Of a DNA stretch of 64,000 bases, positions 11,743 to 55,789 are shown piece by piece. Both the position numbers and the translations under genes were made by a program. The DNA is from Seonamhaeicola algicola (GTDB lineage: Bacteria; Bacteroidota; Bacteroidia; Flavobacteriales; Flavobacteriaceae), in contig NZ_VOSC01000033.1 in assembly GCF_007997385.1 (NCBI RefSeq), forward strand, positions 248,775 through 312,774, written 5' to 3'. The stretch's first letter is position 1. Each line of letters starts with the position of its first letter. Under the pieces are notes generated by a model. That model had not been told where the DNA came from. It did not search any database and worked only from the letters and a program-made list of their open reading frames with translations.

Positions 11743-11744
11743 AC

Positions 11745-13241: not shown

Positions 13242-13261
13242 GCTTATTGTTTTAAGTCTTT

Positions 13262-13303
13262 CAAAGTTATTTGTTATTTTAATTCTTAAAAAGACTATTT
13301 TTG
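13262..13303. promoter_or_regulatory. Overlapping divergent promoters of hutH and the LysR gene
   Basis: Minus strand: TAACTTTG (13262-13269) is a perfect TAnnTTTG box for hutH. Plus strand: TTTG (13270-13273), a 22-base spacer and TATTTTTG (13296-13303) form a full promoter for the LysR gene. The two overlap head to head, so one LysR dimer bound here could control both directions. The AT-rich spacer has several T-N11-A candidates and no clear single best one. Confidence 0.55.
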
Positions 13304-13319
13304 TTATTATTTGATAACT

Positions 13320-14198
13320 GTGAGTAATCAATTAGAATTAAGACATCTTAAATATTTTTTAGCTGTTGCCGAAGAATTACACTTTAGGCGCGCTGCTGAA
13401 CGCTTATATATTTCGCAACCTGGATTAAGCCGCCAAATAAAACAAATGGAAGATGATTTGGGAGTGATACTTTTTGAACGCCATAACCGAAAAGTAATAC
13501 TTACTAAAGCAGGCGAATACCTAAAAAAAGAACTTTCTATAACTTTAAAAAGTTTAGACTACACGTTGCACCATACTAAATTAGTGCATGATGGTAAAAT
13601 AGGCAATTTAAAACTTGGCTACGTAGGTTCTGCAATGCAAAGTGTAATACCTAATTTATTAATTGCTTTTGAAGAAAAACACCCCAATATTGTATTTAGT
13701 TTGAAAGAAATTGATAATGAAACACAAATAAAACATTTACTTTCATTTGATTTAGATGTGGGTTTTGTGCGCTTAGAGCGTGTGCCCAAAGACTTAGAAA
13801 CAAAACCTATTTTAAATGAAAATTTTTGTTTGGTGTTACCTAAGTCTTTTAAAATAAGTTCAAAATCTTTGAAAAACTTGGAATCCTTCAAAAATGAATC
13901 TTTTATACTTTTTGACCCAAAATACAGTGCTTCGTATTATGAAAAAGTCATGCAGATTTTTGACGATAGCGGGTTCTTGCCTATAATATCACATAATACT
14001 ATTCACGCTGGTTCTATCTACAAGTTGGTTGAAAATGGTTTTGGTATTTCTATTGTTCCCAAATCATTGGCTGCAAACAACAATGAAAATTTACAGTTTA
14101 TTGAATTAGATAAAATGAAACAAAAAACAACACTATCTGTGGTTTGGAATAAAAACAATAGAAACCCAATGCTTCAAAACTTCTTAAAACTCATTTAG
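13320..14198 (+). CDS. LysR-family regulator, probably of the hut operon
   Basis: DNA-binding regulator with an N-terminal winged HTH (LRHLKYFLAVAEELHFRRAAERLYISQPGLSRQ in two parts, residues 6-40) and a periplasmic-binding-like effector domain. It is divergent from hutH with a shared 80-base control region, so sensing urocanate or histidine is the likely role; that is inference from position. The frame opens at TTG 13311, but GTG at 13320 fits better, since the -7 box at 13296-13303 would start the transcript near 13310. The gene is convergent with the TetR gene and overlaps it by four bases. Confidence 0.85.
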   Translation: MSNQLELRHLKYFLAVAEELHFRRAAERLYISQPGLSRQIKQMEDDLGVILFERHNRKVILTKAGEYLKKELSITLKSLDYTLHHTKLVHDGKIGNLKLGYVGSAMQSVIPNLLIAFEEKHPNIVFSLKEIDNETQIKHLLSFDLDVGFVRLERVPKDLETKPILNENFCLVLPKSFKISSKSLKNLESFKNESFILFDPKYSASYYEKVMQIFDDSGFLPIISHNTIHAGSIYKLVENGFGISIVPKSLAANNNENLQFIELDKMKQKTTLSVVWNKNNRNPMLQNFLKLI

Positions 14199-41343: not shown

Positions 41344-41688
41344 TTAAACTAATTGAAAAACTTTTTCAAGTTCAATCCATTTTTCACCTGGTTTAGCCCA
41401 TGGTAGTTCTTGTTGGTAATTCCACATAAGTTTTTCCCATTCTTGCACCTTAGGGTTATTAGCATCCATTTGGGCCTTTTTAGCAGGGTTAAACGTTTCA
41501 TCAACCTCCATAATCATAAACATACGGTTACCTGTTAAATAAATCTGCATATCAACAATACCAGCATCCTTAATACTTTTAGTAATCTCGGGCCATGCAT
41601 TACCTGCTGCATGGTATTCTTTATATTCTTCAATTAGTTTTGGGTTATCCTTTAAATCGCAAGAATAACAATATCTTTTTGTACTCAT
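41344..41688 (-). CDS. RhaM-family sugar mutarotase (L-rhamnose/L-fucose type)
   Basis: Interconverts alpha and beta anomers of a free sugar so the next enzyme can use it. The 114-residue protein matches the small RhaM (DUF718) family: KRYCYSCDLKDNPKLIEEYKE, YHAAGNAWPEI, IYLTGNRMFMIMEV. It is the last gene of the operon, three bases after the FucP-type permease. Family members act on L-rhamnose or L-fucose; with the neighbouring enzymes, L-galactose or L-fucose is the likely substrate here. Confidence 0.85.
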   Translation of the reverse strand: MSTKRYCYSCDLKDNPKLIEEYKEYHAAGNAWPEITKSIKDAGIVDMQIYLTGNRMFMIMEVDETFNPAKKAQMDANNPKVQEWEKLMWNYQQELPWAKPGEKWIELEKVFQLV

Positions 41689-41691
41689 TTT

Positions 41692-43017
41692 TTAGTTTTT
41701 TAAATTTCTTTTGTAACTAGCGTAACCATATAATGCAACTACAGCTAAACATATTAGAGGTAAAATAAACGAAAAGTTAACCTCTGGTATAAAACCTAAT
41801 ACTTGTACATCGGCAAAACCATCACCACCCCAATCTAAAATAGCACCTTGCGCCACTGGCATTAAAGCCCCACCAACAATGGCCATAACTAATCCAGCAG
41901 AACCAATTTTAGCTTCGTCACCCATATCTTTTAGGGCAATACCGTAAATGGTTGGGAACATAATAGACATAAATACTGAAATACCAACTAAAGATAGTAA
42001 CCCTGCAATGCCTGGTAATAATATGGCGCCTGCACACATTACAACACCACCAACACCAAATAGCATTAATAGTCTTGATGGGTTTATTTTTTTCATTAAA
42101 GCTGTACCAATCCAACGGCCACATAAAAATGAAATCATAGCAGCTATGTTAAAGTATGTTGCCGTATACTCAGTACCGTTGGTAATATTTAAATTATCTA
42201 CATATTGAAAAATATAGGTCCAACACATAATTTGTGCACCCACGTAAAATGCCTGACTTAAAACACCTTGTAAATAATTTTTGTTAGCAAATAATTTTTT
42301 GAAAGATTCAGACAAAGACATTTTATCCTCCTCAGCCGTTTTAGGCATTTTTGTAGCTATAATAATTCCCATAATAACTAATACTAAAACACCTAAAGCT
42401 ATATATGGCACACTAATAACGCCCAAATCATTTTCTCTAATAGCAGCTAATTCTTCCGAAGATAATGCGTTATAAGCCTCAGCTGTATAATCATCTGAAC
42501 GTAATGCGCCAATTACAAAAACCTGCGCTATTATCATTCCTGTTAATGAGCCTATTGGGTTAAAGGCCTGAGCTAAATTTAAACGTTGTGTAGCTGTTTC
42601 TTTATCACCTAACGCTAAAATTAATGGATTTGACGTGGTTTCTAAAAAAGCCAAACCACAAGTAATAACCCATAATGAAATTAAAAAGTAGTTAAACTCT
42701 TCATTTGCTGCTGCAGGATAAAACAAAAACGCTCCAATTGCATATAAACACAGCCCTAAAATAATACCCGATTTATAACTGTATTTTCTAATAAAAAGTG
42801 CTGCTGGTAATGCCATAAAAAAGTACCCAAAATAGAATGCAAATTGTACTAATGATGCTTGTACATTTGATAGCTCTGGCATAACTTTTTTAAATGCCGA
42901 TACCATAGGGTTAGTTAAATCGTTGGCAATTCCCCAAAGGGCAAATAACGATGTTATAATTATAAAAGGAAACAACAACTCCTTTTTAACAACTGGTATT
43001 TTTTTTAGTTTATTCAT
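41692..43017 (-). CDS. FucP-family sugar/H+ symporter (MFS)
   Basis: Inner-membrane importer of a free sugar. The 441-residue protein has about twelve hydrophobic helices and strong FucP features: LFALWGIANDLTNPM near the start, VQASLVQFAFYFGYFFMALP, ETTSNPLILALG and LNLAQAFNPIGSL. E. coli FucP carries L-fucose and also accepts L-galactose and D-arabinose, which fits the pathway proposed here. It is separated from the SDR gene by 94 bases that contain a strong hairpin, so its expression may be reduced or driven separately; the mutarotase gene follows three bases later. Confidence 0.9.
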   Translation of the reverse strand: MNKLKKIPVVKKELLFPFIIITSLFALWGIANDLTNPMVSAFKKVMPELSNVQASLVQFAFYFGYFFMALPAALFIRKYSYKSGIILGLCLYAIGAFLFYPAAANEEFNYFLISLWVITCGLAFLETTSNPLILALGDKETATQRLNLAQAFNPIGSLTGMIIAQVFVIGALRSDDYTAEAYNALSSEELAAIRENDLGVISVPYIALGVLVLVIMGIIIATKMPKTAEEDKMSLSESFKKLFANKNYLQGVLSQAFYVGAQIMCWTYIFQYVDNLNITNGTEYTATYFNIAAMISFLCGRWIGTALMKKINPSRLLMLFGVGGVVMCAGAILLPGIAGLLSLVGISVFMSIMFPTIYGIALKDMGDEAKIGSAGLVMAIVGGALMPVAQGAILDWGGDGFADVQVLGFIPEVNFSFILPLICLAVVALYGYASYKRNLKN

Positions 43018-43055
43018 TTTTTAGTTTAATTAGTTAGAATTACTTGTTGCAAAAT

Positions 43056-43087
43056 AAAGAAGCCAAAAGATATATTTTGGCTTCTTT
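43056..43087 (-). terminator. 13-bp hairpin inside the sugar operon, between SDR and permease genes
   Basis: AAAGAAGCCAAAA (43056-43068) pairs exactly with TTTTGGCTTCTTT (43075-43087) around a 6-base loop. On the minus strand it follows the SDR stop by 25 bases and is followed by a T-rich stretch. It may be a partial terminator or an RNA-processing site. Confidence 0.65.
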
Positions 43088-43111
43088 GTCTTTTATTAGA
43101 CAACAAATGTT

Positions 43112-43903
43112 TTATTCGGTTAGTAAAGATCGGTCTAAATGTACGTAACCACCATCAACTGTGATGAACTGTCCTGTGGTGTGTGATGATTTTTCTGAAA
43201 TAGCAAATAAACACTGATCTGCAATTTCTTGTGGTGTTGTCATTCTATTTTCTAAAGGAATTTTTTTAACAATAGATTTTAGTTTTTCTTCACCATTTTC
43301 TAAAGTTTTAATCCATGCATCATAAGCTGGTGTCCAACTTTCGGCAATAATGATGGCGTTAGAACGGATACCTTCTTTTATTAAATCTACAGCCCATTCT
43401 CTTGTTAAACCTAAAACGCCACCTTTAGCTGCTGCGTAACCCGATGTGCCTCCTTGGCCGGTTAACGCTACTTTTGAGCCCACATTTAAGATGTTTCCTT
43501 TTACCTTTTTTATCATTGGTAAACAAAATTTGGTCATGGCAAAAAAGCTAACCATATTTAGCTTTAATGAATACATAAAGTCATCCATTGATGCATCTAA
43601 GCCTGCTCCATCATTAACTCCAACGTTATTAATTAAAGCATCTACTCTGCCATATTTTTCTTCAATTTTTTTTGCTGCAGCTTCAATTTGTGTATAATCT
43701 GATAAATCTGTTTTTATAAAAACACTATCAATACCTTTAGCTTGTAATGCTTCGGCATAGCCAAAACCTCTATCGTTTCTATCTACAATAACAGGTGTTG
43801 CACCTTCATTGGCTAAAGCTTGTACAATAGTTTCGCCAATGCTTCCTTTAATACCAGCTGCTCCTGTTACAACAACCACTTTATTTTTTAATCCTAAATC
43901 CAT
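43112..43903 (-). CDS. SDR-family sugar dehydrogenase (L-fucose/L-galactose 1-dehydrogenase type)
   Basis: Likely oxidises the sugar at C1 to its lactone with NAD(P)+. The 263-residue short-chain dehydrogenase has the nucleotide motif TGAAGIKGSIG at residues 14-24 and NNVGVNDGAG. The catalytic Ser is in NVGSKVALTGQGG and the YxxxK in GYAAAKGG. SHTTGQFITVDGGYVHLDRSL at the end is typical of Bacteroidota proteins I recall being called L-fucose dehydrogenases. It is not KduD-like. It sits three bases after the lactonase gene, which supports a C1-oxidation step followed by lactone opening. Confidence 0.8.
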   Translation of the reverse strand: MDLGLKNKVVVVTGAAGIKGSIGETIVQALANEGATPVIVDRNDRGFGYAEALQAKGIDSVFIKTDLSDYTQIEAAAKKIEEKYGRVDALINNVGVNDGAGLDASMDDFMYSLKLNMVSFFAMTKFCLPMIKKVKGNILNVGSKVALTGQGGTSGYAAAKGGVLGLTREWAVDLIKEGIRSNAIIIAESWTPAYDAWIKTLENGEEKLKSIVKKIPLENRMTTPQEIADQCLFAISEKSSHTTGQFITVDGGYVHLDRSLLTE

Positions 43904-43906
43904 ATT

Positions 43907-44734
43907 CTATAAGTTATAAAACTCTATAGCATTTTGCCCCATAACCTTAGCTTGTTCGGTAGCACTTAAATTTGCTATAAAATTTGTAATTAATGCTTTT
44001 ACTTGTTTATAATTTCCGGCTACCAAACACACAGGCCAATCTGAACCAAACATAATTCTTTCTGCCCCAAAGGCTTCAAAAACCAGTTCTAAATATGGTT
44101 TAATTTGCGCTGGTGTCCATGTTTTAAAATCGGCTTCAGTAACAATACCAGATACTTTACAATACACGTTATCATGTTTGCCTATTTCTTTCATTAAAGT
44201 TGCCCAACCATTATAAAACCCTTCTTTTATATAGGGCTTTGCTATATGATCTATAACAAAGCGCATATTAGGGAAACACTTAACAAACTCTAAAGCTGCT
44301 CCTAATTGGTGCGGAAATATTAAAATATCGTACGTATAATTATGTTTTTCTAAAACTGAAATACCTCTTAAAAAGTTTGGACGTAATAGAAAATTATGAT
44401 CTGGCTCACCTTGGACAACATGCCTAAACCCCTTTAAAATATTAGTGTTAGCGTAGGTTTCTAAAGTGCTTTCAATAGCATCATTTCTTAAATCTACCCA
44501 ACCAACAACACCTTTAATAAATGCGTTTTCTTTGGCAAGTTGTATTAAAAAATTGGTTTCAGTTAATGTTTGATCTGCCTGAACAGCTACACACCCATCA
44601 ATACCATTTTCATTATAAACTTGCTCTAAATCTGATGGTAAAAAATCGCGACGAATCACTTTCATAGATTCATCAATCCATTCGTGCTTTTTAGGTTCGT
44701 AATGCCAGAAATGTTGGTGCGAATCTATTACCAT
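43907..44734 (-). CDS. L-fuconolactonase-type amidohydrolase (COG3618)
   Basis: Hydrolyses a sugar-acid lactone, the product of the SDR enzyme, to the free aldonate. The 275-residue TIM-barrel protein begins MVIDSHQHFWHYEPKKHEWI with the HxH metal motif at residues 6-8. Other family features are CVAVQADQTLTETNFLIQLA, FRHVVQGEPD, FVIDHIAKP, CKVSGIVTEAD and the late Asp in MFGSDWPVC. Known members open L-fucono-, L-galactono- and related lactones. It lies three bases from both neighbours, so it is translationally close to the SDR and the tagaturonate reductase. Confidence 0.85.
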   Translation of the reverse strand: MVIDSHQHFWHYEPKKHEWIDESMKVIRRDFLPSDLEQVYNENGIDGCVAVQADQTLTETNFLIQLAKENAFIKGVVGWVDLRNDAIESTLETYANTNILKGFRHVVQGEPDHNFLLRPNFLRGISVLEKHNYTYDILIFPHQLGAALEFVKCFPNMRFVIDHIAKPYIKEGFYNGWATLMKEIGKHDNVYCKVSGIVTEADFKTWTPAQIKPYLELVFEAFGAERIMFGSDWPVCLVAGNYKQVKALITNFIANLSATEQAKVMGQNAIEFYNL

Positions 44735-44737
44735 TAC

Positions 44738-46174
44738 TTACTTTACAAAATTTTCTAAAGTTGCTTTCATGCCTTTATTCACAATATCTTCAAGGTTTTT
44801 AGTAACCGTTTCTAAAAGCCCGTTGTACTGTGTTAAATCTTCACCCCAAAAATCAGTATTTTGTAGTGTAGCTTTTGCTACGTTAGCAACGTTACCTGTT
44901 GCCCATTGTGTTTTAAAGAAATCTAAAGCAGATTGATCATCTTTTAACGGAATACTCTCTCCGTTTCTATCACCTTTATAAAACGCTATTAATGATGCTA
45001 AAGAGAATAGTAAACGTTGTGGCAGCGCTCCTTTTCTTTTAATATATTCTAACACCGATGGTAATACTCTTGTTTTATATTTTGAAGTAGAATTTAATGA
45101 AATACTAATTAAAGCATGCTCTAAATATGGGTTTCTAAATCTATCAATAACATCATTAGCAAACTGATTTAGTTCTGCTTCAGGCAAATCTAAAGTTGGG
45201 CAAATTTCTTCAAAAATGGCATCTTTTAAAAAACCACCAACAACGTCATCTTCTAATGATTCACGCACTTTATCAATACCATATAAATAGCCAACTGGCA
45301 CCAAACTGGTGTGTGCACCATTAAGAATACGTACTTTTCGTGTTCTGTATGGTTCCATATTATCTGTAAATACAATATTTAAACCACAAGCTTCAGCTGG
45401 AATTTCTTCTTTTACAGCTTCGGGTCCTTCAATTACCCATAAATGGAACTGTTCACCTTCAACTACTAAATTATCTTTGTAACCTAATTCTTCGGTTATT
45501 TTATCCATTTTATCACGCGGATACCCTGGCACAATTCTATCTACCAATGTATTGCAGAAAATGTTATCATCATTAATCCACTCTGTAAATTCGGCTCCTA
45601 AATTCCAATCATTTGCATATTGAAGTATGATGCGCTTTAGGTTATCTCCGTTTCTATCAATTAATTCACAAGGAATAATAATTAGTCCTTTATCTGAAGC
45701 TCCACCAAATGTTTGAAAACGCTTGTATAAAAGCGCTGTTAATTTACCAGGAAAACTTGATTGTGGCGCATCATCTAATTTATCGTTTTCATTGTAAGCA
45801 ATACCCGCTTCTGTAGTATTTGAAATTACAAAACGAAGTTCTGGGTTTTCAGCAATTGCCAAATAATCGGCAGGATTTTCATACGGATTAACACCTCTCT
45901 GAATACAATCTACAATTTGATGTTCGCTTATAGCTTCACCGTTTTTAATACCGTTAAGGTAAAGTGTGTACAAACCATCTTGGTCGTTTAGCATTTTAAT
46001 TAAACCTTGATTAATTGGCTGAACGGCTACAACACCGGCATCAAAACCAGCTTGTTTATTCATTTCGTGTATCATCCAATTGGCAAAGGCTCTTAAAAAA
46101 TTACCTTCTCCAAATTGAACTATTCTTTCTGTATATGTATTTACAGATGCTGTATTTCTATTTAATAAATTCAT
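44738..46174 (-). CDS. uxaB: Tagaturonate reductase (altronate oxidoreductase)
   Basis: NADH-dependent reduction of D-tagaturonate to D-altronate. The 478-residue member of the mannitol dehydrogenase family starts with TERIVQFGEGNFLRAFANWM. The family signature region VDRIVPGYPRD lies near residue 210, and KVRILNGAHTSLVPVGYLYG near residue 280 contains the catalytic Lys-Asn-His type motif of UxaB. In hexuronate use the keto acid comes from UxaC, but no uxaC is seen in the window. The neighbouring Zn dehydrogenase can supply tagaturonate from L-galactonate instead. Confidence 0.93.
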   Translation of the reverse strand: MNLLNRNTASVNTYTERIVQFGEGNFLRAFANWMIHEMNKQAGFDAGVVAVQPINQGLIKMLNDQDGLYTLYLNGIKNGEAISEHQIVDCIQRGVNPYENPADYLAIAENPELRFVISNTTEAGIAYNENDKLDDAPQSSFPGKLTALLYKRFQTFGGASDKGLIIIPCELIDRNGDNLKRIILQYANDWNLGAEFTEWINDDNIFCNTLVDRIVPGYPRDKMDKITEELGYKDNLVVEGEQFHLWVIEGPEAVKEEIPAEACGLNIVFTDNMEPYRTRKVRILNGAHTSLVPVGYLYGIDKVRESLEDDVVGGFLKDAIFEEICPTLDLPEAELNQFANDVIDRFRNPYLEHALISISLNSTSKYKTRVLPSVLEYIKRKGALPQRLLFSLASLIAFYKGDRNGESIPLKDDQSALDFFKTQWATGNVANVAKATLQNTDFWGEDLTQYNGLLETVTKNLEDIVNKGMKATLENFVK

Positions 46175-46190
46175 TCTATGTCTTTACTTT

Positions 46191-47843
46191 TTATAATGAA
46201 ACGCCTCTTTTCCAAGGAATAAAATCGTTATTACCATGTAGTACCGCTTTTGATGGTACTTCGCCGCTAGCTACCTTAATAATGTGGTCTAATATTTTCT
46301 CGCCCATAGATTCTATGGTATCTTCTCCGGTAATTACTGTACCTGCGTTAATATCAATAATATCATTCATACGTTCGTATAAATTGGTATTACTAGACAT
46401 TTTTAAAACGGGTGCAACGGGGTTACCTGTTGGCGTACCTAAACCTGTGGTAAACACTACCACATTGCAACCAGAGCCTACTAAACCTGTGGTGGACTCT
46501 ACGTCATTACCTGGTGTGCACAATAAATTTAAACCTGGTTTTGTTACTTGTTCTGCATAATCTAGCACCTCAACTACTGGCGATGTGCCGCCCTTTTTTG
46601 CAGCCCCAGCAGATTTCATAGCATCTGTAATTAAGCCGTCTTTTATGTTTCCTGGTGATGGATTGTTTTCAAAACCAGAACCCACAGCCACAGCAGCAGC
46701 CGAATAAGCACGCATTAAACCAGAGAATTTTTTAGCATCTTCTTCGGTTTTACATCTATTGATTAACTCTTGTTCTACACCATTCAATTCAGGAAACTCT
46801 GCTAATACTGGTGACCCACCTAAACCGACTAATAAATCTGAGGCATAACCAAGTGCTGGGTTTGCTGAAATGCCTGAAAAACCATCAGATCCGCCACACT
46901 CTAAACCTAAAACTAGCTTACTTAACGGTGCTGGTTTTCGTTCTAATTTATTGGCTTCAACTAAACCTAAAAACGTATGCTTTACGGCTTCTTCAATTAA
47001 AGCACGCTCACTTGAGCTTTGTTGTTGCTCTAAATAATGAACCGGTTTTGTATTGTTTGGTGCAATAGCTTTAATAGCATTTTGTAACATGCTAATTTGT
47101 GCGTTTTGGCAGCCTAAACTAAAAATAGTTGCGCCAGCTACATTTGGGTTTGCTATATATCCTGCTAATAATTGGCATAACACCTCAGAATCTTGACGAA
47201 TACCACCGCAACCACCATCGTGTTTTAAAAATTTTATGCCATCTACATTTGGAAACAATCTGTTTTTAGTCATTTCCTCTTTTGTAGTAATAATCGGTGT
47301 ATTTAAAATGGCATCGTTTGATGCGCCTGCTTTGTATTGCTCTATTAGTGCATCTGTATTTACAGCAAAATCTTTTTTAGTTTGATAGCCTAATTTTTCA
47401 GAAAGTGCGCCTTCTAAAACATCAACATTTCTGTTTTCACAAAACGTTAAAGGAATTACTAACCAATAATTTGCAGTACCTACTTTACCATCTTCTCTAT
47501 GATATCCGTTAAAGGTTCTGCCTTCAAATTTTGACACATCAGGTGCAGACCAACTGTAAGCCTCTTTGGTATCTTGAAATGCTGCCGAAGCATGTTTAAC
47601 ATTATCAATAGTAATAGCACAACCCTCTTGAATTGGCTTTGTTGCTTTACCAATTAAAACACCGTACATGTAAATTTGGTCGCCTACTTCAAAATTATTT
47701 AAAGCGTATTTGTGTTTTTGTTTAATATCTTCTTTTAAAACAACTTCTTTACCTGCTACTTGAGTTTTTAACCCTTTTTCTAAAGGTGTAATAGCAACAA
47801 TAATGTTGTCTTTTGGGTCTATTTGAACGTAACTTGCTGACAT
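46191..47843 (-). CDS. uxaA: Altronate dehydratase
   Basis: Dehydrates D-altronate to 2-keto-3-deoxy-D-gluconate (KDG). The 550-residue protein is the full-length form. The N-terminal SAF domain (KYALNNFEVGDQIYMYGVLI, GKATKPIQEG, about residues 40-85) is joined to the catalytic UxaA domain with GYHREDGKVGTANYW near residue 115, HDGGCGGIRQDSEVLCQLL, GLECGGSDGFSG and LLCTPGNDVESTTG. The Cys residues in these motifs are the expected metal ligands. It sits 16 bases before uxaB. A related dehydratase acting on another aldonate is possible, but the uxaB neighbour favours altronate. Confidence 0.93.
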   Translation of the reverse strand: MSASYVQIDPKDNIIVAITPLEKGLKTQVAGKEVVLKEDIKQKHKYALNNFEVGDQIYMYGVLIGKATKPIQEGCAITIDNVKHASAAFQDTKEAYSWSAPDVSKFEGRTFNGYHREDGKVGTANYWLVIPLTFCENRNVDVLEGALSEKLGYQTKKDFAVNTDALIEQYKAGASNDAILNTPIITTKEEMTKNRLFPNVDGIKFLKHDGGCGGIRQDSEVLCQLLAGYIANPNVAGATIFSLGCQNAQISMLQNAIKAIAPNNTKPVHYLEQQQSSSERALIEEAVKHTFLGLVEANKLERKPAPLSKLVLGLECGGSDGFSGISANPALGYASDLLVGLGGSPVLAEFPELNGVEQELINRCKTEEDAKKFSGLMRAYSAAAVAVGSGFENNPSPGNIKDGLITDAMKSAGAAKKGGTSPVVEVLDYAEQVTKPGLNLLCTPGNDVESTTGLVGSGCNVVVFTTGLGTPTGNPVAPVLKMSSNTNLYERMNDIIDINAGTVITGEDTIESMGEKILDHIIKVASGEVPSKAVLHGNNDFIPWKRGVSL

Positions 47844-47861
47844 TTTTTCTTTTTCGCTTTC

Positions 47862-48872
47862 TTAATTAAAATTTACTGTGGCTTTCATAACGCCTGTTTC
47901 TGGCTTTAACCAACTATCAAAATTTTCAATCATTTCAGTAAATGGCACATTGTGTGTAATAAATGATTCTGTTGGGAACTGATTTAACACGCTAATTACA
48001 TGCTCAAAATCTTCGGTAGTTGCGTTTCTACTGCACATTAATGTCATTTCTTTTGCATGTACTTTTGGGTGTGTATATGTTAATTCACCTTTTGATAAAC
48101 CAACTAATACAAAACGACCACCATGCGACATATAATCAGGGCAAGCCTCTAAGGCATATTTGTTACCTGATGCATCAAAAACCGCCGTACATAAATCGCC
48201 GTTTGTTATATCTTCAACCTCTTTTACTGCATTTTCGCCCGCTTTAACAATATAATCTACGCCTATTTTTTCTTTAGCGTATTGTAAACGCTGCTCATTC
48301 ATATCAATTGCAATTACTTTAGCTCCTGCTATTTGGGCAAGTTTCATAATACCAATACCTATTGGTCCGCAACCAACAACTGCTACAGTTTCGCCTGGTT
48401 TAATATTTGCTCTTCTTATAGAATGTGCACCAATAGCTAAAGGCTCAACAATAGCCATTTCATCATCACTTAAATTGTTTGCTGGTAATAAAATATTTGC
48501 AGGCACTGTTATTTGTTCTTGCATGCCGCCATCACCATGCACACCCAAAACTGTAATGTTTGTACAACAGTTGGTTTTTCCGTTGCGGCAAGCAATACAT
48601 TTTCCACAGCTAACGTAAGGCATAACCACTACTTTGTCGCCTGCTTTAATACCGCGTTCGTTTTCACCAATTTCAAGTACTTCAGAAGCTAACTCATGCC
48701 CTAGAATTCTTGGGTATGTAAAAAATGCCTGATTTCCTGCATAAGCATGCAAATCTGTACCACAAATACCAACTTTTTTAATTTTCAATAACGCTTCACC
48801 TTCTTTTCTTACCGGTGCTTCTTTTTCTTTTAAAAGAAACTCACCTGGCTTTTCGCAAACAATGTATTTCAT
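47862..48872 (-). CDS. Zinc alcohol dehydrogenase, L-galactonate 5-dehydrogenase (LgoD/YjjN)-like
   Basis: Proposed to oxidise L-galactonate at C5 to D-tagaturonate. The 336-residue medium-chain dehydrogenase has the catalytic zinc site VGICGTDLHAYAGNQAFF and GHE (residues 35-62). It also has the structural zinc cluster CGKCIACRNGKTNCC near 90-104, the Rossmann motif VVGCGPIGIG near 168 and GLSKGELTY with SRNATTEDF in the C-terminal part. These stretches resemble E. coli YjjN (LgoD) as I remember it. It is the first gene of the operon, directly behind the LacI operator region. Other sugar-acid or polyol dehydrogenase roles are possible. Confidence 0.8.
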   Translation of the reverse strand: MKYIVCEKPGEFLLKEKEAPVRKEGEALLKIKKVGICGTDLHAYAGNQAFFTYPRILGHELASEVLEIGENERGIKAGDKVVVMPYVSCGKCIACRNGKTNCCTNITVLGVHGDGGMQEQITVPANILLPANNLSDDEMAIVEPLAIGAHSIRRANIKPGETVAVVGCGPIGIGIMKLAQIAGAKVIAIDMNEQRLQYAKEKIGVDYIVKAGENAVKEVEDITNGDLCTAVFDASGNKYALEACPDYMSHGGRFVLVGLSKGELTYTHPKVHAKEMTLMCSRNATTEDFEHVISVLNQFPTESFITHNVPFTEMIENFDSWLKPETGVMKATVNFN

Positions 48873-48934
48873 TAGTTTATGTTTATAATATTAGCCCGAA
48901 TGGAGCACGCTCTTTCGGTTCAAATTCTTATTAA

Positions 48935-48950
48935 GTTCAAACGATTGAAC
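48935..48950. promoter_or_regulatory. Second, imperfect LacI-type operator near the Zn dehydrogenase gene
   Basis: GTTCAAACGATTGAAC differs by one base from the core of the perfect operator at 49045-49074. It lies 63 bases before the Zn dehydrogenase ATG (minus strand). The two sites are centred about 117 bases apart, a spacing that would allow looping or independent control of the operon and of the lacI gene. Confidence 0.6.
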
Positions 48951-49044
48951 AAAGTAACCTCAAAAAAGAACAAAAACACAAAAAACCTACAACACACAAG
49001 GCTTAAGGTTACATGCGTAGTTTTGTTTATATTAAAAAAACTAC

Positions 49045-49074
49045 TATTTTTGTTCAAACGTTTGAACAAAAATA
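49045..49074. promoter_or_regulatory. 30-bp perfect palindrome, LacI-family operator
   Basis: The left half TATTTTTGTTCAAAC (49045-49059) is the exact reverse complement of the right half (49060-49074), with the central CG typical of LacI-family sites. It lies just before the LacI gene that starts at about 49090. Confidence 0.8.
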
Positions 49075-49089
49075 TAAAAATATTTTACA

Positions 49090-50115
49090 ATCAAGAAAAA
49101 AACAACCATAAAAGATATTGCTGAAGCTTTAGGTTTAACACCATCGGGAGTTTCAAAAGCGCTTAATAATCATCCAAGAATTAGTGATAAAACTAAAGAC
49201 GATGTGCGCAAAATGGCAAAGAAACTAAACTACCAACCTAACCGTTTAGCTACAGCTTTACGTAAAGGCAAAAGTAACTTGGTTGGGGTTATTATTCCTA
49301 GAAATAATAGTAATTTCTTTTCTTCGGTAGTTGAAAATATTGAAGGTGTTTTAAATGAAAAAGGCTATAATGTTATCATTTCACAATCTAACGAATCACA
49401 CAAAAAAGAATGTGATTGTATTGATGCACTTTTAAGCGCTCAAGTTGATGGTATTATTGCTTCTATGGCTAACGAAACTACTAATTTAAAATACTACGAA
49501 AAAATTAAAGAAAAAGGCACACCTCTGGTGCTTTTTGATAGAGGTGAAAATGATTTAAACGTTGATTATATTTGTATTGACGATTATAATAGTAGCCACA
49601 AAGTAGTTGAACATTTGGTTAACCAAGGCTGCAAACGTATAGCGCATATTGCTGGTTCAAAACATATTAGAATTTACAAAGAACGTGAAATTGGTTATAG
49701 AGATGCGTTAAAAAAGCATAATTTACCAATTGAAGACGAACTTATAGTTGAAAGCAGTTTGAGGCTGGAAGATGGCAGACGTATTATGCAACAGCTTTTA
49801 GAGTTAAAAGACAGACCTGATGCCGTGTATGCTTCAGGAGATTATGCCGCTTTGGGCGCATTGCAAGTAATGCAAGAAAACAATATAAACGTACCTGAAG
49901 ATATTGCTTTAATTGGTTTTAGTAATGAACCTTTTACATCGTTTGTGTCGCCGGCTATTTCAACGGTAAATCAGCATAGTGAAGCCATGGGAAAATTGGC
50001 TGCCGAAACATTTTTAAAACGTATTGATGCTCCAAATAAAAAGGTAACTTTAAATAAAATTACCTTAAATACTGAATTGATTATTAGAATGTCTTCAAAT
50101 AAAACTAATTGTTAA
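49090..50115 (+). CDS. LacI-family regulator with an apparent non-standard (ATC) start
   Basis: Likely repressor of the divergent sugar operon. The HTH is complete: KKKTTIKDIAEALGLTPSGV, SKALNNHPRISDKTKDDVRK, followed by the hinge YQPNRLATALRKGKSNLVGV and a periplasmic-binding-like domain. The frame closes at a stop at 49075-49077, and between it and the HTH there is no ATG, GTG or TTG; the first is GTG at 49204, which would remove most of the HTH. ATC at 49090 stands exactly where ATG is expected and gives 341 residues, against 340 for the LacI paralogue at 52293. It overlaps the convergent DUF4861 gene by 11 bases. Confidence 0.8.
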   Translation: MKKKTTIKDIAEALGLTPSGVSKALNNHPRISDKTKDDVRKMAKKLNYQPNRLATALRKGKSNLVGVIIPRNNSNFFSSVVENIEGVLNEKGYNVIISQSNESHKKECDCIDALLSAQVDGIIASMANETTNLKYYEKIKEKGTPLVLFDRGENDLNVDYICIDDYNSSHKVVEHLVNQGCKRIAHIAGSKHIRIYKEREIGYRDALKKHNLPIEDELIVESSLRLEDGRRIMQQLLELKDRPDAVYASGDYAALGALQVMQENNINVPEDIALIGFSNEPFTSFVSPAISTVNQHSEAMGKLAAETFLKRIDAPNKKVTLNKITLNTELIIRMSSNKTNC

Positions 50116-51274
50116 TTAGCTTTACTTTTAATGGGTTTTCTACTTTTATAGCAAACGCACTTAAATACTGCTCCCAAGCTTGTTGGTTTTTAAACTGATT
50201 GCTTTTACTCCATGTAAAACCTGCATAATAAACCACACTATTATTAACTGCTTTTAAGTGTATAAAAGCATTGCTTAAATCTTTTTTATCTGTTTCGTAT
50301 TTTTCATTACCAGCATAATAAATTGACGGTGCTACTAGGGCTGTTCCTAACTCTGCATTGGCATGAGGTTGCCAGTAGTTAAGCCAAGTTTCTCCGTTTT
50401 TTGATGTAACAACACCATCATTTTCATGTAATGTTAAACCTGCCGAAATTGTATCAATACCTTGAATATTTACTTCAAACTTTGATAAATTGTTACCATA
50501 ATCTAAACTTATAATTCTAGATTCTTTAATTGGTGTACCTTCTGGCCCCCACAAATCATATTCAACATAAAAACTTGTTCTTATAGGCCCTGTGGTGATG
50601 GTTTTATGTTTTATGAAATTTTTTGAAATATAATATATACTATCTTTTTTATAGGCTAAACCACCAACACCTCTACTTTTACCAACATGAAAATTATCTA
50701 AACCTTCACCAGTATCTTCATGATAGCTACCTGTTTTTTCAGTATATTTTTTATACCATTTATTTATAATTGGGTATTCTACTTTTTTTAACCATGCATC
50801 AACTCCGCTAGATAAAGTGGGTTCTGGCAGATTATTTTCAAATCGGTATTGAGCATTTGGGCCAAAAATTCTGAAAGCCACTTTATTGTTTTCCCAGGCA
50901 TAATCATCAGTTCTTTCAGGAACAAATCTTGAATAGCATATAACAGCAGCACTATCATTTTTAGTTGCTTTAACTATTTTATATGTATTTGTTTGTTTTG
51001 CCTTTATTTTGGGTTGAAAAAGCAACAAATCGTTCACACCATCTGCATCTGTATCAACTAATTGTGATGTTACAACATTGTTGTTTTCAATATTTTTTAT
51101 TGCTAAGCCTTCTAAATTCTGAAGGTTTAAAACAGATTTTGAAAGCTCTATGGTTTCAAAACTTCGGTCTATATCAAGGGTGTTTTCAACTTGAAATGTT
51201 GTATTATTATCTTTTTCACAAGAAAAAAACATACTTAAAATAGATGCAACGGTTAATACCTTTAAAGCTTTCAT
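50105..51274 (-). CDS. DUF4861 lipoprotein of a polysaccharide-use locus
   Basis: An exported protein of 389 residues, anchored as a lipoprotein (SILSMFFSC lipobox near residue 19). The rest is a beta-sandwich-like fold with family features FVPERTDDYAWENNKVAFRI, FGPNAQYR, EDTGEGLDNFHVGKSRGVGG and LHENDGVV. DUF4861 proteins are commonly found beside uronate and pectin-type degradation genes; the catalytic role is not known to me, though the conserved Glu/Asp/His stretch ERTDDYAWEN and YHEDTGEGLDNFH could form a site. It is the second gene of the kduI operon, 18 bases after kduI. Confidence 0.8.
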   Translation of the reverse strand: MKALKVLTVASILSMFFSCEKDNNTTFQVENTLDIDRSFETIELSKSVLNLQNLEGLAIKNIENNNVVTSQLVDTDADGVNDLLLFQPKIKAKQTNTYKIVKATKNDSAAVICYSRFVPERTDDYAWENNKVAFRIFGPNAQYRFENNLPEPTLSSGVDAWLKKVEYPIINKWYKKYTEKTGSYHEDTGEGLDNFHVGKSRGVGGLAYKKDSIYYISKNFIKHKTITTGPIRTSFYVEYDLWGPEGTPIKESRIISLDYGNNLSKFEVNIQGIDTISAGLTLHENDGVVTSKNGETWLNYWQPHANAELGTALVAPSIYYAGNEKYETDKKDLSNAFIHLKAVNNSVVYYAGFTWSKSNQFKNQQAWEQYLSAFAIKVENPLKVKLINN

Positions 51275-51292
51275 ATCTGTTTATTTTAGTTG

Positions 51293-52132
51293 TTATCTTA
51301 GTTCTGAAATATTGGCCATATCCATATCTGAATAATCTAAATTTTCGCCTGCCATTCCCCAAATAAATGTATAATTACTGGTTCCTGCCCCAGAGTGTAT
51401 AGACCATGGTGGCGATATTACTGCTTGTTCATTTTGCATCCAAATATGTCTAGTTTCATTAGGCTGCCCCATGAAATGACAAACCGATTGCCCTTCAGGA
51501 ACTTCAATGTAAAAATACACCTCCATACGGCGGTCATGCACGTGTGCAGGCATTGTATTCCAAACGTTACCTGTTTTTAAAGATGTCATTCCCATTTGTA
51601 ATTGGCATACATCAACAACGCTATTTACAATGTATTTTCTTAGCGTTCTGGCATTTGCTGTTTCATTGGCGCCTAGTTCAACTACCTCAACATCTTCAAT
51701 TCCTATTTTTTTATTTGGAAATGCTTTATGCGCAGGTGTTGAGTTTAAATAAAACTTAGCCGGGGTATTAGCATGGGCACTAGAAAATACCACTATTTTA
51801 TTGCCTTGCCCCAAGTAAAGTGCTTCTTTGTTTTCTAGTTCATAAACAGTGCCGTCTACATTTACGGCTCCTTTTCCGCCAATGTTTATAATACCTAATT
51901 CTCTTCGTTCTAAAAAAAACTCAGATTTTAATTCATCTACAGTTTCAAGTGTTACTTCGTTTTTAGGCACAACGCCAGCAACCATAAACCTATCATAATG
52001 CGAATACACCCATTTTATGGTATTAACCGTCATAACGTCTTCTACCAAAAACTCATCTCTGAGTGCTTTTGTATCCATTTGTTTTACTTCTCTTGGAGAA
52101 GTCGCATATCTTACCTGGCTATTGTTTATCAT
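51293..52132 (-). CDS. kduI: 5-keto-4-deoxyuronate isomerase
   Basis: Isomerises 5-keto-4-deoxyuronate, the rearranged product of unsaturated uronates released by polysaccharide lyases, to 2,5-diketo-3-deoxygluconate. The 279-residue cupin has zinc ligands in PAHVHDRRMEVYFY (H-x-H-x4-E, near residues 197-204) and a later His in SIHSGAGTSNYTFIWGMAGE. YATSPREVKQMDT and DRFMVAGVVP are typical near the N-terminus. KduD, the next step, is not in the window. It starts behind a 34-bp palindrome shared with a divergent LacI gene. Confidence 0.94.
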   Translation of the reverse strand: MINNSQVRYATSPREVKQMDTKALRDEFLVEDVMTVNTIKWVYSHYDRFMVAGVVPKNEVTLETVDELKSEFFLERRELGIINIGGKGAVNVDGTVYELENKEALYLGQGNKIVVFSSAHANTPAKFYLNSTPAHKAFPNKKIGIEDVEVVELGANETANARTLRKYIVNSVVDVCQLQMGMTSLKTGNVWNTMPAHVHDRRMEVYFYIEVPEGQSVCHFMGQPNETRHIWMQNEQAVISPPWSIHSGAGTSNYTFIWGMAGENLDYSDMDMANISELR

Positions 52133-52171
52133 TTTAGTTTTGTTTGATTATGATTGTAAAATTAGTAATTT

Positions 52172-52205
52172 ATTTTAAAAATACAATCGATTGTATTTTT
52201 AAAAT
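52172..52205. promoter_or_regulatory. 34-bp perfect palindrome, operator of the second LacI regulator
   Basis: The left half ATTTTAAAAATACAATC (52172-52188) is the exact reverse complement of the right half (52189-52205), with core TACAATCGATTGTA and central CG. It lies between kduI (minus) and lacI (plus), 40 bases from the kduI start. The core differs fully from the first operator, so the two LacI proteins should not cross-bind. Confidence 0.8.
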
Positions 52206-52292
52206 TCACTATATTAAACATCTATTTACATATATTAGCCACTTTATTAAAAAAGGCTCTTTTTATTTAACCTAACACTTAGGCTTTTAAGT

Positions 52293-53315
52293 ATGAAAAA
52301 AGGTGAACAAGTAACTATACACGACATAGCTAAAGCTTTAGGCATTGATAGTTCTACGGTTTCTAGAGCCTTAAATAATAGTACGCGTGTTTCAAAAACA
52401 ACAAAGCAAAAAATACTTGATAAGGCTACTGAACTTGGGTACCAACGCAACACTTTAGCTTCAAACTTAAGAACCAATAAAACCAATACCATTGGTGTTA
52501 TAGTACCAAGAATTTCACGTAATTTCTTTTCTAGTGTTATTTCAGGTATTGAAGAAACGGCACAAAAAGCCGGTTATAATGTTATTATTTGCCAATCTTT
52601 TGAAGATTTTGAAAAAGAACAAAAACTGATGGAAACTTTATTATCAAATAGAGTTGATGGTGTTTTAATTTCAATATCAATGCAAACCGAAACGTTTGAT
52701 CATTTAATGCCCTACTTAAACCATGGTGGCCCTATTGTTTTTTATGATAGACCTTGCTATATTGAAAATTGCTCTAGTATTAGTGTTGATGATTACAAAG
52801 CCAGCTTTATGGCTACCGAACATTTAATAGAAAATGGCTGTAAAAATATTGTTCATTTTTCGGGGCCACAAATAAATCCGCTATATAAAAACCGAAAACG
52901 TGGCTATGTTGATGCCTTAAAAAAGCATGGTTTAAATTTTAATGAAAATTATTGTTTAGAGTCTAAATTATCAGAGAATGATGGTATTGTATTTGCTAAA
53001 GAAATAATAAAAATGGGGCATATTGATGGTATTTATTCATCAAATGACACTGCTGCTATTGCTGCAATTCAGTATTTAAAAAGCAAAGGTGTTAATATAC
53101 CCAAAGATATAGCTGTAGTGGGTTTTAATAACGACCCTATATCATCGGTTATTGAGCCTTCACTTACAACTATTAATCAGCCTGATTTTGAAATGGGAAA
53201 AACAGCTGCATCTTTATTAATACAACAAATACAAGATACATCATTTAAAAAAACATCAAAGGTTTTAGATGTTGAATTAATTGTTAGGCAATCTTCTCAA
53301 CATAAAAAAGTTTAA
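52293..53315 (+). CDS. LacI-family regulator of the kduI block
   Basis: A 340-residue repressor-type protein. The HTH VTIHDIAKALGIDSSTVSRA, LNNSTRVSK is at residues 7-35, the hinge region GYQRNTLASNLRTNKTNTIG follows, and the ligand domain resembles ribose-binding proteins. Start ATG at 52293. It is divergent from kduI-DUF4861 across a perfect palindrome and convergent with the GH95 gene, ending three bases before that gene's stop. Its inducer is probably a uronate intermediate such as KDG or a deoxy-keto-uronate; that is inference from the target operon. Confidence 0.88.
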   Translation: MKKGEQVTIHDIAKALGIDSSTVSRALNNSTRVSKTTKQKILDKATELGYQRNTLASNLRTNKTNTIGVIVPRISRNFFSSVISGIEETAQKAGYNVIICQSFEDFEKEQKLMETLLSNRVDGVLISISMQTETFDHLMPYLNHGGPIVFYDRPCYIENCSSISVDDYKASFMATEHLIENGCKNIVHFSGPQINPLYKNRKRGYVDALKKHGLNFNENYCLESKLSENDGIVFAKEIIKMGHIDGIYSSNDTAAIAAIQYLKSKGVNIPKDIAVVGFNNDPISSVIEPSLTTINQPDFEMGKTAASLLIQQIQDTSFKKTSKVLDVELIVRQSSQHKKV

Positions 53316-53317
53316 AA

Positions 53318-55789
53318 CTACCATGTTATTTTTATGGTTTTGGTTTCACCTGCACTAAAATTAAGTGTAAAATTATTATCTTCTACTTTATGTATTTTAG
53401 TGTTAACTTTAACTTGGGTTATTTTTTTTTGTAATTGAAATGTAATTGTTTGCTGTTTACCACTAGCAACTTTGGCCAGTAATGTTTTTTGTGGCATATT
53501 CCACTCTAAATATTTAATTTTAGCTTGTGTTCTGCATAAAATACCTGATATATTCCCTTTTTGAAATTTATTTGATAATGCTGGTAAAAACTCAATAACA
53601 CCAGGTTTTGAAAACACTAACATTTCTAAAACAACTGCAGGAATAGCATGAAGTGCATCTGTATTATAAATAATTCCTGGATTGTGCGATGTTACCAAAC
53701 TATTATAGAGGTAATTATTTTTCATTAAAAATAGCAAATTACCATATACCAAATTAGCCTTTTTTAATCGGGTTGCAATTAATGCGGTATGTGCTAAACC
53801 ATGTGCACTACCATTACCTTTCCCTCTCTTTTCAATGGCTATATTAGATGCGTTAAAAAGTGTTTTATTTTCAGGAGAAATTTCTAGACCAGGCCAAACA
53901 GGATATAAATGTGAAATGTGCCTATGGTTATAATTATCTGCCAAATCTGCTCTTGCCCATTCTTTTAGTGCCCCATCGTTATTTATTAAATACGGTGGTA
54001 GTTTATTTAGAATAGCTTTCCAAAGGTTTACTTTTTCATCATTTAACTGCAGTTCATTGTTAATAGTAATTAAATTTGAAAGCAGTTCTTTTATAACTGC
54101 AATATCCATGGTTGCATTTGCCACAGCACCAATTTTTTCACCATTAGGCAAAATTGCCTTGTTTTCTGGTGAGTATGATGGCCCAATTAAATAATTGCCA
54201 TTAGCATCATAAGTATCTAAAAAATCTTCATAAAACAAAGCTGTTTTTTTCATCATAGGATACAATCTTTCCTTCATAAAGCGTGTATCACCTGTACATT
54301 GGTAATATTCAAAACAAGGTAATAACAACCACTCAACTCCTGCTGTCCAGTAATTCCCTGGCCACTCACCAAAGTGTGTATGCAAATTACGTCTTCCAGA
54401 TGTTCTGGTTCCAGAGACATAACCACGGCAACCAAAAAGATTTTTAGCGTTTATTTCCCAATCTGGTGCAATGCGCTCTAATAAAGACATGTAGCTATAA
54501 ATAGCTTCTTTCTGGTTGGCTAAATTAGCAGCTGCAATTTGTAAATTTATATTAGCATCAAGTGTAAAATCTCCAGACCACCTAGGCCTCCAAGTACCAT
54601 TCCATATACCCATTAAATTTGGTGGGTTTTTGCCGCTACTGGAAATTAAACCGTAAATACCCATATTAAAAACTTTTTCTAAAAGATAAGGGTTAATGTC
54701 TGTTTCAGATTTTTGATTGTTTATTAATGCTTCGTTTGAACCATCATGAAACCCTGTTTTATCTAAATGTAATGTTATACGGTTAAACATTTCACCATGA
54801 ATTTTGGCGTGTGATTTTAAAAGATTATCATAAGAAGACAAATTATTTATTTCTGCTTTTGCCTTTGAAATAACAGATTTTGAATAAGGCTCAACGGGTA
54901 TTACTTTTGCAATAATTTCAATAGTATTGGCATTTTTAACCGAAATTTTTTTACCATTAGATGATAGCTTACCGCCTTCATTTTTAACACACATAATAAC
55001 TTCATACCCTCTATCTACTAGTTGATATTTGCTACGGAAAGTTATCCAATTTTCATTTAAACTTGTTTCTGGAAACTCTACTAAGGGATTATTAAGTTGC
55101 TGCCATTTATCTGGAAATAACATTTTTACATTTTCCTCAATACCAGACTCTTTTGCTTTTTCAGATTGATTTGTATCAATTTGATGTGCTAGTGTAAAAG
55201 ATGCATTAATAGCTTGTGATTTACTACTTTTAAGTTTGGTTGCTATTACATTGTTTGGCCTAGACACAAACGATGTTCTTGTATATTTTATATTGTTTGC
55301 AAGCCATTGTATGGTTATTTCACCATTTTCATAATTTAATAGTCTTTTATATTTTGAAACTTCACCAACAAAATCTTGGTTTATGTTTAACACACATGCC
55401 GGATGGTATGGATCTGTCCATAAAATATCTTGATATCCTCGTTTTTTAGCCAGTTGTAGTATTTCGTTTTTAGCTTCTTTGTATTTAGTATCTTTAATTA
55501 ATTTTTTAATTTTTGGCATAATATCGCCAACCACCGGTGGCTCTATTGCCTCAGTACCAATATATTCGTAAAGCATTTCATGGTTAAAAATAATTTTTTC
55601 TTTATGTGTATTTCCATACACCATTATACCCATTTCACCATTACCACTTATAAGCGCATCTTGCCACCTAGTTGCCTCAGTATCTGAAAAATTTGTACTG
55701 GCTGTATGATTATTTTCAACTTGTTTATGGCAAGAAATAACAACAAATATTATGGCGCTTAAACAGTAATTTTTTATAGATATTTTCAT
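53318..55789 (-). CDS. GH95-family glycosidase lipoprotein (alpha-L-fucosidase or alpha-L-galactosidase)
   Basis: Exported 823-residue glycosidase, lipoprotein-anchored (IIFVVISC lipobox). The GH95 frame is clear. The N-terminal beta domain starts at ATRWQDALISGNGEMGIMVY, followed by GIWNGTWRPRWSGDFTLDAN with the N-I-N pair. The catalytic-acid region is GPSYSPENK, and NHRHISHLYPVWPG lies near the C-terminal end of the (alpha/alpha) barrel. After N-I-N the usual aromatic NYWP-type stretch is replaced by LQIAAANLAN, so this is a divergent branch. GH95 members release alpha-L-fucose or alpha-L-galactose; the adjoining L-galactonate-type genes favour L-galactose. No LacI operator is visible in front of it. 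Confidence 0.85.
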   Translation of the reverse strand: MKISIKNYCLSAIIFVVISCHKQVENNHTASTNFSDTEATRWQDALISGNGEMGIMVYGNTHKEKIIFNHEMLYEYIGTEAIEPPVVGDIMPKIKKLIKDTKYKEAKNEILQLAKKRGYQDILWTDPYHPACVLNINQDFVGEVSKYKRLLNYENGEITIQWLANNIKYTRTSFVSRPNNVIATKLKSSKSQAINASFTLAHQIDTNQSEKAKESGIEENVKMLFPDKWQQLNNPLVEFPETSLNENWITFRSKYQLVDRGYEVIMCVKNEGGKLSSNGKKISVKNANTIEIIAKVIPVEPYSKSVISKAKAEINNLSSYDNLLKSHAKIHGEMFNRITLHLDKTGFHDGSNEALINNQKSETDINPYLLEKVFNMGIYGLISSSGKNPPNLMGIWNGTWRPRWSGDFTLDANINLQIAAANLANQKEAIYSYMSLLERIAPDWEINAKNLFGCRGYVSGTRTSGRRNLHTHFGEWPGNYWTAGVEWLLLPCFEYYQCTGDTRFMKERLYPMMKKTALFYEDFLDTYDANGNYLIGPSYSPENKAILPNGEKIGAVANATMDIAVIKELLSNLITINNELQLNDEKVNLWKAILNKLPPYLINNDGALKEWARADLADNYNHRHISHLYPVWPGLEISPENKTLFNASNIAIEKRGKGNGSAHGLAHTALIATRLKKANLVYGNLLFLMKNNYLYNSLVTSHNPGIIYNTDALHAIPAVVLEMLVFSKPGVIEFLPALSNKFQKGNISGILCRTQAKIKYLEWNMPQKTLLAKVASGKQQTITFQLQKKITQVKVNTKIHKVEDNNFTLNFSAGETKTIKITW

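Follow-up and report, generated by a model that had tools for sequence, protein, structure and literature searches.

A LacI-linked operon of Seonamhaeicola algicola with a complete gene set for a proposed route from L-galactose to 2-keto-3-deoxy-D-gluconate

In this study, we revisited a seven-gene operon in a 64,000-nucleotide stretch of the Seonamhaeicola algicola genome (contig NZ_VOSC01000033.1, positions 248,775 to 312,774; hereafter the window, whose numbering is used throughout), which an earlier note, made from the letters alone, had read as a pathway from L-galactose to 2-keto-3-deoxy-D-gluconate (KDG). The open reading frames (ORFs) and family matches agree with the layout described there, that is, seven tightly packed minus-strand ORFs at 41344-48872 in the order lgoD, uxaA, uxaB, lactonase, short-chain dehydrogenase/reductase (SDR), FucP and RhaM, with gaps of 18, 16, 3, 3, 94 and 3 bases. 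The first encodes an LgoD-type Zn dehydrogenase (47862..48872) with ADH_N and ADH_zinc_N domains, which would turn L-galactonate into D-tagaturonate. It is followed by a UxaA-type altronate dehydratase (46191..47843; PF04295 and PF20629, altronate/galactarate dehydratase family) and a UxaB-type tagaturonate reductase (44738..46174; 694 bits, model cut-off 359), which are the sole matches in the genome to PF04295 and to PF08125 (UxaB family), respectively. The lactonase is an amidohydrolase-family aldonolactonase (43907..44734) with 4dlf as its closest solved relative by sequence, and the SDR, our proposed L-galactose 1-dehydrogenase, belongs to the L-fucose dehydrogenase family (43112..43903; 352 bits, cut-off 300). 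Its closest solved relatives are 4gkb and 4gvx, the latter described as the L-fucose dehydrogenase of Burkholderia multivorans (PMC11293516). A FucP-type sugar:proton symporter (41692..43017; FucP model 505 bits, cut-off 280) and a RhaM-family sugar mutarotase (41344..41688; PF05336) complete the set; the latter reaches 25 bits with the L-rhamnose-mutarotase equivalog model, far under the cut-off of 99.6. By family, a sugar dehydrogenase, an aldonolactonase and an L-galactonate 5-dehydrogenase are encoded together here, and LgoD, UxaB and UxaA are linked in one operon. No terminator was found in a scan directly 3' of it.

The assignment of the Zn dehydrogenase is based on its identity of 41% to Escherichia coli LgoD over 337 positions (291 bits), compared with 33% and 171 bits for RspB, the LgoD paralogue of E. 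coli. Its best NCBIfam model is PRK10083, with a score of 206 bits that lies under the cut-off of 376. We rejected this as an argument against LgoD: E. coli LgoD itself also scores 206 bits and RspB 694 bits, so that PRK10083 effectively models RspB, and failure to pass it is uninformative on LgoD function. In an alignment of 22 sequences C37, H59, E60, C89, C92, C95 and C103 are invariant, and we take these residues to have zinc roles in an LgoD-type enzyme. 1e3j is also among its solved relatives.

The operon had furthermore been credited with its own LacI control, and this is consistent with the region upstream of lgoD, where a divergent LacI-family gene, lacI1, is found on the plus strand (49090..50115, start inferred). 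The GTG start listed at 49204 is too far downstream; the open frame extends up to about 49090, and the stretch from an in-frame TAA (49075) to the helix-turn-helix region has no ATG, GTG or TTG in frame. Near the TTG position of most of the orthologues shown lies an ATC (49090) that is identical in the nearest named relative locus (L100), which makes a sequencing error less likely; it is possible that lacI1 uses a non-standard start codon. Between lgoD and lacI1 we found a perfect 20-bp palindrome of the LacI operator type, TTGTTCAAACGTTTGAACAA (49050..49069), and, 117 bp from it, a second predicted operator with two mismatches to the pattern (48933..48952). At up to three mismatches 0.02 matches to the pattern are expected in the window, and the sole other match in the genome has three mismatches and is no better than that of a reversed control pattern. 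In 14 of 131 relative loci (described below) at least one site lies within 400 bases upstream of lgoD, with two sites in 11; lacI1 is divergent to lgoD in 20 relatives, and these include all 14. A fifteenth locus, L106, has a pair of sites immediately before its matched lgoD start, and the other five of the 20 have no site there at up to three mismatches. These predicted operators support a dedicated control of the operon by LacI1.

We consider the locus to be a self-contained, LacI-controlled operon for L-galactose, a reading to which, from gene content and comparison, we give a probability of about 0.84. The catalytic steps, their substrates, the repression and the inducer are what we infer. 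FucP would bring in L-galactose and the RhaM-family protein would accelerate the exchange of its anomers; the SDR would oxidize the sugar at C1 to the lactone, which the lactonase would convert to L-galactonate. The LgoD-type enzyme would then oxidize C5 of L-galactonate to give D-tagaturonate, which UxaB would reduce to D-altronate, a net C5 epimerization with the same logic as in the L-galactonate route of E. coli, and UxaA would dehydrate D-altronate to KDG. As had been claimed earlier, this chain is complete in gene content. KDG would leave it through a KDG kinase and a 2-keto-3-deoxy-6-phosphogluconate (KDPG) aldolase encoded elsewhere, and the genome holds two KDPG-aldolase-family genes. 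LacI1 would repress from the two operators between the divergent genes until released by a sugar of the pathway.

The earlier note had also suggested looking for co-occurrence of these genes in other genomes. Among 249 genomes of the family, searched for LgoD at E <= 1e-60, LgoD was found in 55, UxaB in 79 and UxaA in 88. All 55 LgoD genomes, one of them with a weak 35% match, also hold UxaB and UxaA, and LgoD was found in none of the 170 genomes that lack UxaB. This is what would be expected of an enzyme that depends on UxaB and UxaA for the use of its product, even where the LgoD operon itself lacks both. For gene partners we used 131 distinct LgoD loci, made up of 60 genome regions and the best 80 of a longer list of named loci, after the removal of seven duplicates and of two loci without LgoD at 40% identity; the named set is biased to close relatives, the loci are mutually dependent and several end at contig ends. 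Operons were called mechanically as the longest non-overlapping ORFs on the same strand with gaps of up to 300 bases. UxaB is present in 61 of these LgoD operons, a fumarylacetoacetate hydrolase (FAH)-type hydrolase or an SDR of the 2-keto-3-deoxy-L-fuconate (KDF) dehydrogenase type in 12, and both in none, while 34 show none of the scored partners. The full seven-gene set, with an SDR or an aldo/keto reductase (AKR) as the first dehydrogenase, is kept in one operon in 37 of the 131 loci and is for this reason more than chance. KDG kinase or KDPG aldolase genes occur in 17 of the LgoD operons, 15 of which are among the 61 with UxaB and none among the 12 with FAH. Phosphorylation at C6 requires a 6-hydroxyl, which L-fucose, a 6-deoxy sugar, does not have, and therefore the KDG kinase of the sister operons fits L-galactose and does not fit L-fucose. 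L100, one of the 37 and from a Seonamhaeicola metagenome-assembled genome, has an LgoD 96% identical to that of the window and shares its gene arrangement as far as LacI1, DUF4861 and KduI, with a LacI2 relative farther out. Gene content, gene order, operators, conservation and co-occurrence are in our view established.

Further support comes from the first step. The plant L-galactose dehydrogenases form a cluster of AKRs, and the first enzyme of the window operon, an SDR, falls outside it. Among the 61 UxaB operons 40 have an SDR, eight an AKR, 13 neither (in the called operon) and none both, and the best solved match of the one AKR tested (L042) is L-galactose dehydrogenase (7lh6, 7smi). A carefully built tree of LgoD from 49 operons (eight with AKR and 41 with SDR, the window included) requires at least seven changes between the two types (7-8 across bootstraps), and its starred branches force at least four. 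The quick LgoD tree, in which AKR was set against all other UxaB operons, also gave seven; the quick-method trees (this one and the SDR tree) have long branches. In the SDR tree, sequences from FAH operons are interspersed with those from UxaB operons at three or more positions (three changes; clustered relative to shuffles). In Luteolibacter LG18, the dehydrogenase LguA clusters with plant L-galactose dehydrogenase and has no L-fucose activity (PMC12632266). Because AKR substitutes for SDR in UxaB operons and LguA is inactive on L-fucose, the window SDR most likely fills the same role, namely the oxidation of L-galactose.

Genes in or beside related operons may point to a source of the sugar. 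Glycoside hydrolase family 29 (GH29) genes are found in 25 LgoD operons, 22 with UxaB and none with FAH. Of two tested, one inside a UxaB operon (L039) and one next to such an operon, adjoining lgoD (L059), both matched exo-alpha-L-galactosidases (7snk/7ljj) better than any fucosidase, with 361 versus 295 and 442 versus 292 bits. Although 7snk carries the Protein Data Bank label alpha-L-fucosidase, it is BpGH29, described as an exo-alpha-L-galactosidase of porphyran breakdown (PMC12316285). The L-galactose reading of the earlier note is in agreement with these GH29 genes, the AKR exchange, the KDG kinase and aldolase partners, and the company of LgoD with UxaB and UxaA. On balance, we lean slightly towards a wider proposal, in which an SDR of the L-fucose dehydrogenase family acts as physiological L-galactose dehydrogenase in most such operons, repeatedly exchanged with the unrelated AKR, and the self-contained operon, common in marine Bacteroidota, serves L-galactose freed by exo-alpha-L-galactosidases from porphyran-like galactans, with perhaps a second, dehydrate-first route in the same genome.

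Several observations weigh against the L-galactose assignment. The window operon has no GH29 gene; one of the exo-alpha-L-galactosidase-like kind is present in a second cluster of the same genome (L095). It has been proposed that a Thr/His residue in family GH95 marks the release of L-galactose (PMC4491172). The GH95 protein encoded near the operon carries Thr at the position in question, as in L-galactosidases, but this does not decide its activity, because one of its two catalytic Asn residues is aligned with Asp and the deposited alpha-L-fucosidase 8zbv likewise has Thr there. The lactonase scores 270 bits with the L-fucono-1,5-lactonase model, under the cut-off of 400, and the KDG kinase was not located. 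UxaA and UxaB are single-copy and two UxaC are present, and so D-galacturonate may share the two enzymes. For the association of LgoD with UxaB, the Fisher p-value (~1e-36) is to be taken as a rough guide, the genomes being related and their size uncontrolled. Moreover, the LgoD proteins of the 12 fucose-type operons are 49-70% identical to that of the window, and in two loci (L049, L050) an LgoD 87-88% identical lies in an operon without UxaB, with genes for FAH and the KDF-type SDR close by on the opposite strand. Because relatives occur in these settings, LgoD by itself is no marker of L-galactose. The simplest account of L049 and L050 is that they are dual fucose/galactose loci, and Halomonas loci of such dual make-up, fucose loci also holding lgoD, uxaA and uxaB, have been reported (PMC5507952). 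L049 also carries genes of the lactate-oxidation type.

It is possible, if unlikely, that the window operon is itself dual, the transporter, mutarotase, SDR and lactonase being common to L-galactose and L-fucose; LgoD, UxaB and UxaA would in this case take L-galactonate only, and L-fuconate would be handled elsewhere or excreted. The SDR and FucP pass fucose-family models, and that fucose-type enzymes accept L-galactose, as the earlier note had assumed, is reported for a mammalian L-fucose dehydrogenase (PMC11293516) and for FucP (PMC13406643), in both cases with L-galactose used less well. The fucose-type sister operons share LgoD, lactonase and SDR, and often FucP and RhaM, with the window, and the scattered SDRs of FAH operons and the Halomonas loci mentioned above point in the same direction. 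However, UxaB is found in none of the 12 FAH operons, and the genome lacks a close FAH hydrolase (its FAH matches are weak, at 32-37%, with frames of about 205 residues) and has no match to FucI, the L-fucose isomerase family of the phosphorylating pathway, in a search whose control was positive in three of 14 genomes. Neither a KDF 4-dehydrogenase nor an FAH-type hydrolase was found in the operon by family scans, and no fuconate dehydratase is present in it, in agreement with the absences noted earlier; the genome has seven enolase-superfamily matches, of which six were scanned (one shortened frame), none scoring above any listed cut-off. The contrast with L-fucose drawn in the earlier note holds for the gene set, fucose-route genes being found in none of the 61 UxaB operons, and does not extend to the enzymes, since fucose dehydrogenases and FucP are reported to accept both sugars and LgoD relatives occur in fucose-type operons.

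We regard it as doubtful that the operon also, or mainly, serves the breakdown of D-galacturonate, from which a UxaC encoded elsewhere would yield D-tagaturonate. The single UxaA and UxaB, the two UxaC and two GH28-family genes about 11-14 kb beyond the window end would suit this function. However, UxaC is not part of the operon (both genome matches are on other contigs, C25 and C30), the lactonase, SDR, FucP, RhaM and LgoD would be left unexplained, and the seven genes stay together in the 37 loci. The sequence leaves the order of dehydration and C5 epimerization free, and in another, very improbable order UxaA would dehydrate L-galactonate, which shares its C2-C4 configuration with D-altronate, to 2-keto-3-deoxy-L-galactonate, whose C5 the Zn enzyme would oxidize before UxaB gave KDG, in parallel to the 3,6-anhydro-L-galactose route. 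An agar-locus 2-keto-3-deoxy-L-galactonate 5-dehydrogenase (EC 1.1.1.389) has been annotated with 1E3J as its closest characterized relative (PMC10163077), a relative shared with the window Zn enzyme, but UxaB scores well above its cut-off as a tagaturonate reductase, the Zn enzyme shares 41% of its residues with E. coli LgoD, and Luteolibacter LguD acts on L-galactonate (PMC12632266). It is scarcely credible that the locus is simply an L-fucose operon whose late enzymes have diverged, and we rejected this reading because of the gene content and because none of the 61 UxaB operons carries FAH genes: fucose-named models are among the best for lactonase, SDR and FucP (three of seven genes), but FAH and KDF dehydrogenase are missing, UxaB, UxaA and LgoD would be unexplained, and the KDG kinase of sister operons would be unable to phosphorylate a 6-deoxy acid at C6.

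The L-galactose operon proposed here can be compared with several known systems. In Bacteroides (Phocaeicola) vulgatus, the lactonase BVU_0220 reportedly lies between BVU_0219 and BVU_0222 in the 2014 work of Hobbs and colleagues, whose description is said not to place uxaA, uxaB, a permease and a mutarotase together in an operon. BVU_0219 and BVU_0222 are described as L-galactose and L-galactonate dehydrogenases that convert L-galactose to D-tagaturonate, the same reactions as proposed here in an organism of the same phylum (PMC12632266). As far as the enzymes can be compared by description, BVU_0219 groups with the plant L-galactose dehydrogenase (PMC12632266), whereas the window enzyme is an SDR. 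No Phocaeicola locus is among the best 80 named loci, and an AKR query of 395 genomes of the class at 1e-50 returned the own-genome paralogue as the sole match; we therefore claim no orthology between the AKR and BVU_0219. The lguABCDEF cluster of Luteolibacter LG18, whose mutants have growth defects on L-galactose (Yachida et al. 2025, PMC12632266), resembles the window operon in that a sugar dehydrogenase, an NAD-dependent aldonate C5 dehydrogenase, a tagaturonate reductase and an altronate dehydratase are clustered. It differs in the plant-type LguA, in a proposed activator, LguR, and in including a KDPG aldolase and a fructokinase; none of its genes is named as a lactonase, permease or mutarotase, and the cluster serves L-glucose too, with LguG (PMC12632266). 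The LgoD-UxaB-UxaA route of E. coli, named in PMC12632266, shares the LgoD-type enzyme with the window but begins at L-galactonate, and lgoD lies there beside lgoR and lgoT with no uxa genes in the 12 kb examined. Non-phosphorylating L-fucose operons (Burkholderia, Xanthomonas and the fucose-type LgoD loci) have the SDR and lactonase families in common with the window, and many of the fucose-type LgoD loci FucP and RhaM as well, but use a KDF dehydrogenase, an FAH hydrolase and a fuconate dehydratase that the window operon does not have.

The earlier note was most likely right about the pathway, but the pathway itself is not new, being the B. vulgatus and Luteolibacter reactions joined to E. 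coli LgoD-UxaB-UxaA, and one step of this known route is probably carried out here by an unrelated enzyme. The claim that such an operon was undescribed accordingly does not stand for the pathway, published for B. vulgatus in 2014 and Luteolibacter in 2025 and with lgoD, uxaA and uxaB reported at Halomonas loci (PMC5507952), and stands for the SDR-type, transporter-bearing, LacI-linked form, no description of an SDR-type operon in flavobacteria having been found among open-licence PMC papers. As far as our searches show, what is new is the SDR first step, its exchange with the AKR, and the occurrence across marine Bacteroidota of a self-contained operon that includes a permease, a mutarotase, LacI1 and operators. 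Enzymes freeing L-galactose, a rare sugar and a building block of porphyran and related red-algal galactans, are described in gut bacteria (PMC12316285), and the fate of the free sugar in marine bacteria is little described in the literature found. An lgoD beside uxaB, with an SDR or AKR, could serve as a gene marker for its use, and in loci of this kind the name 'fucose' attached to the SDR, lactonase or permease may be misleading. The operons also offer a natural case of two unrelated enzymes swapped at one step.

In the 12 fucose-type LgoD operons (L074, L078, L134, L166, L169, L171, L177 and five others) an enolase-type fuconate dehydratase was not recognized, the unlabelled ORFs having been scanned in part (five ORFs, one from a locus outside the 12). 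In two of the 12, L079 and L135, a UxaA-family gene (63%) adjoins LgoD, and could be the dehydratase of those loci.

The second cluster of the genome, L095 (contig C1:319914-337921), encodes an AKR, an enolase-superfamily protein, a KduD-like SDR, an LgoD-like protein (42%), a FucP-like protein and RhaM, together with three GH29 proteins (one tested, exo-alpha-L-galactosidase-like), a GH2 protein and a sulfatase. This content fits a dehydrate-first route for L-galactose or one like that for anhydrogalactose.

Beyond lacI1, genes outside the proposed pathway follow on the minus strand: a DUF4861/BT3233-family gene (50105..51274), conserved close to the operon in L100 and L128, and KduI (51293..52132), kept in L100, L118 and L128, whose route likewise ends at KDG. 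KduI and LacI2 lie near the LgoD operon in these Seonamhaeicola, Maribacter and Pricia loci, and the corresponding region of the window (50105-53315) contains no LacI1-type operator. The GH95 gene follows (53318-55789, minus strand; aligned to 4ufc), and its activity may differ from that of known GH95 enzymes, given the Asp at one of the two catalytic asparagine positions. Besides the two GH28-family genes, GH43-like and sulfatase genes lie beyond the window end, and together with KduI these suggest a uronate-containing polymer as a possible substrate of the adjacent polysaccharide locus. Elsewhere in the window, an AbiEi/AbiEii-type toxin-antitoxin pair is found at 6595-8303 (plus strand), and the minus-strand genes at 8522-13331 have the look of a histidine utilization operon, presumably with hutI, hutU and hutH as judged by eye.

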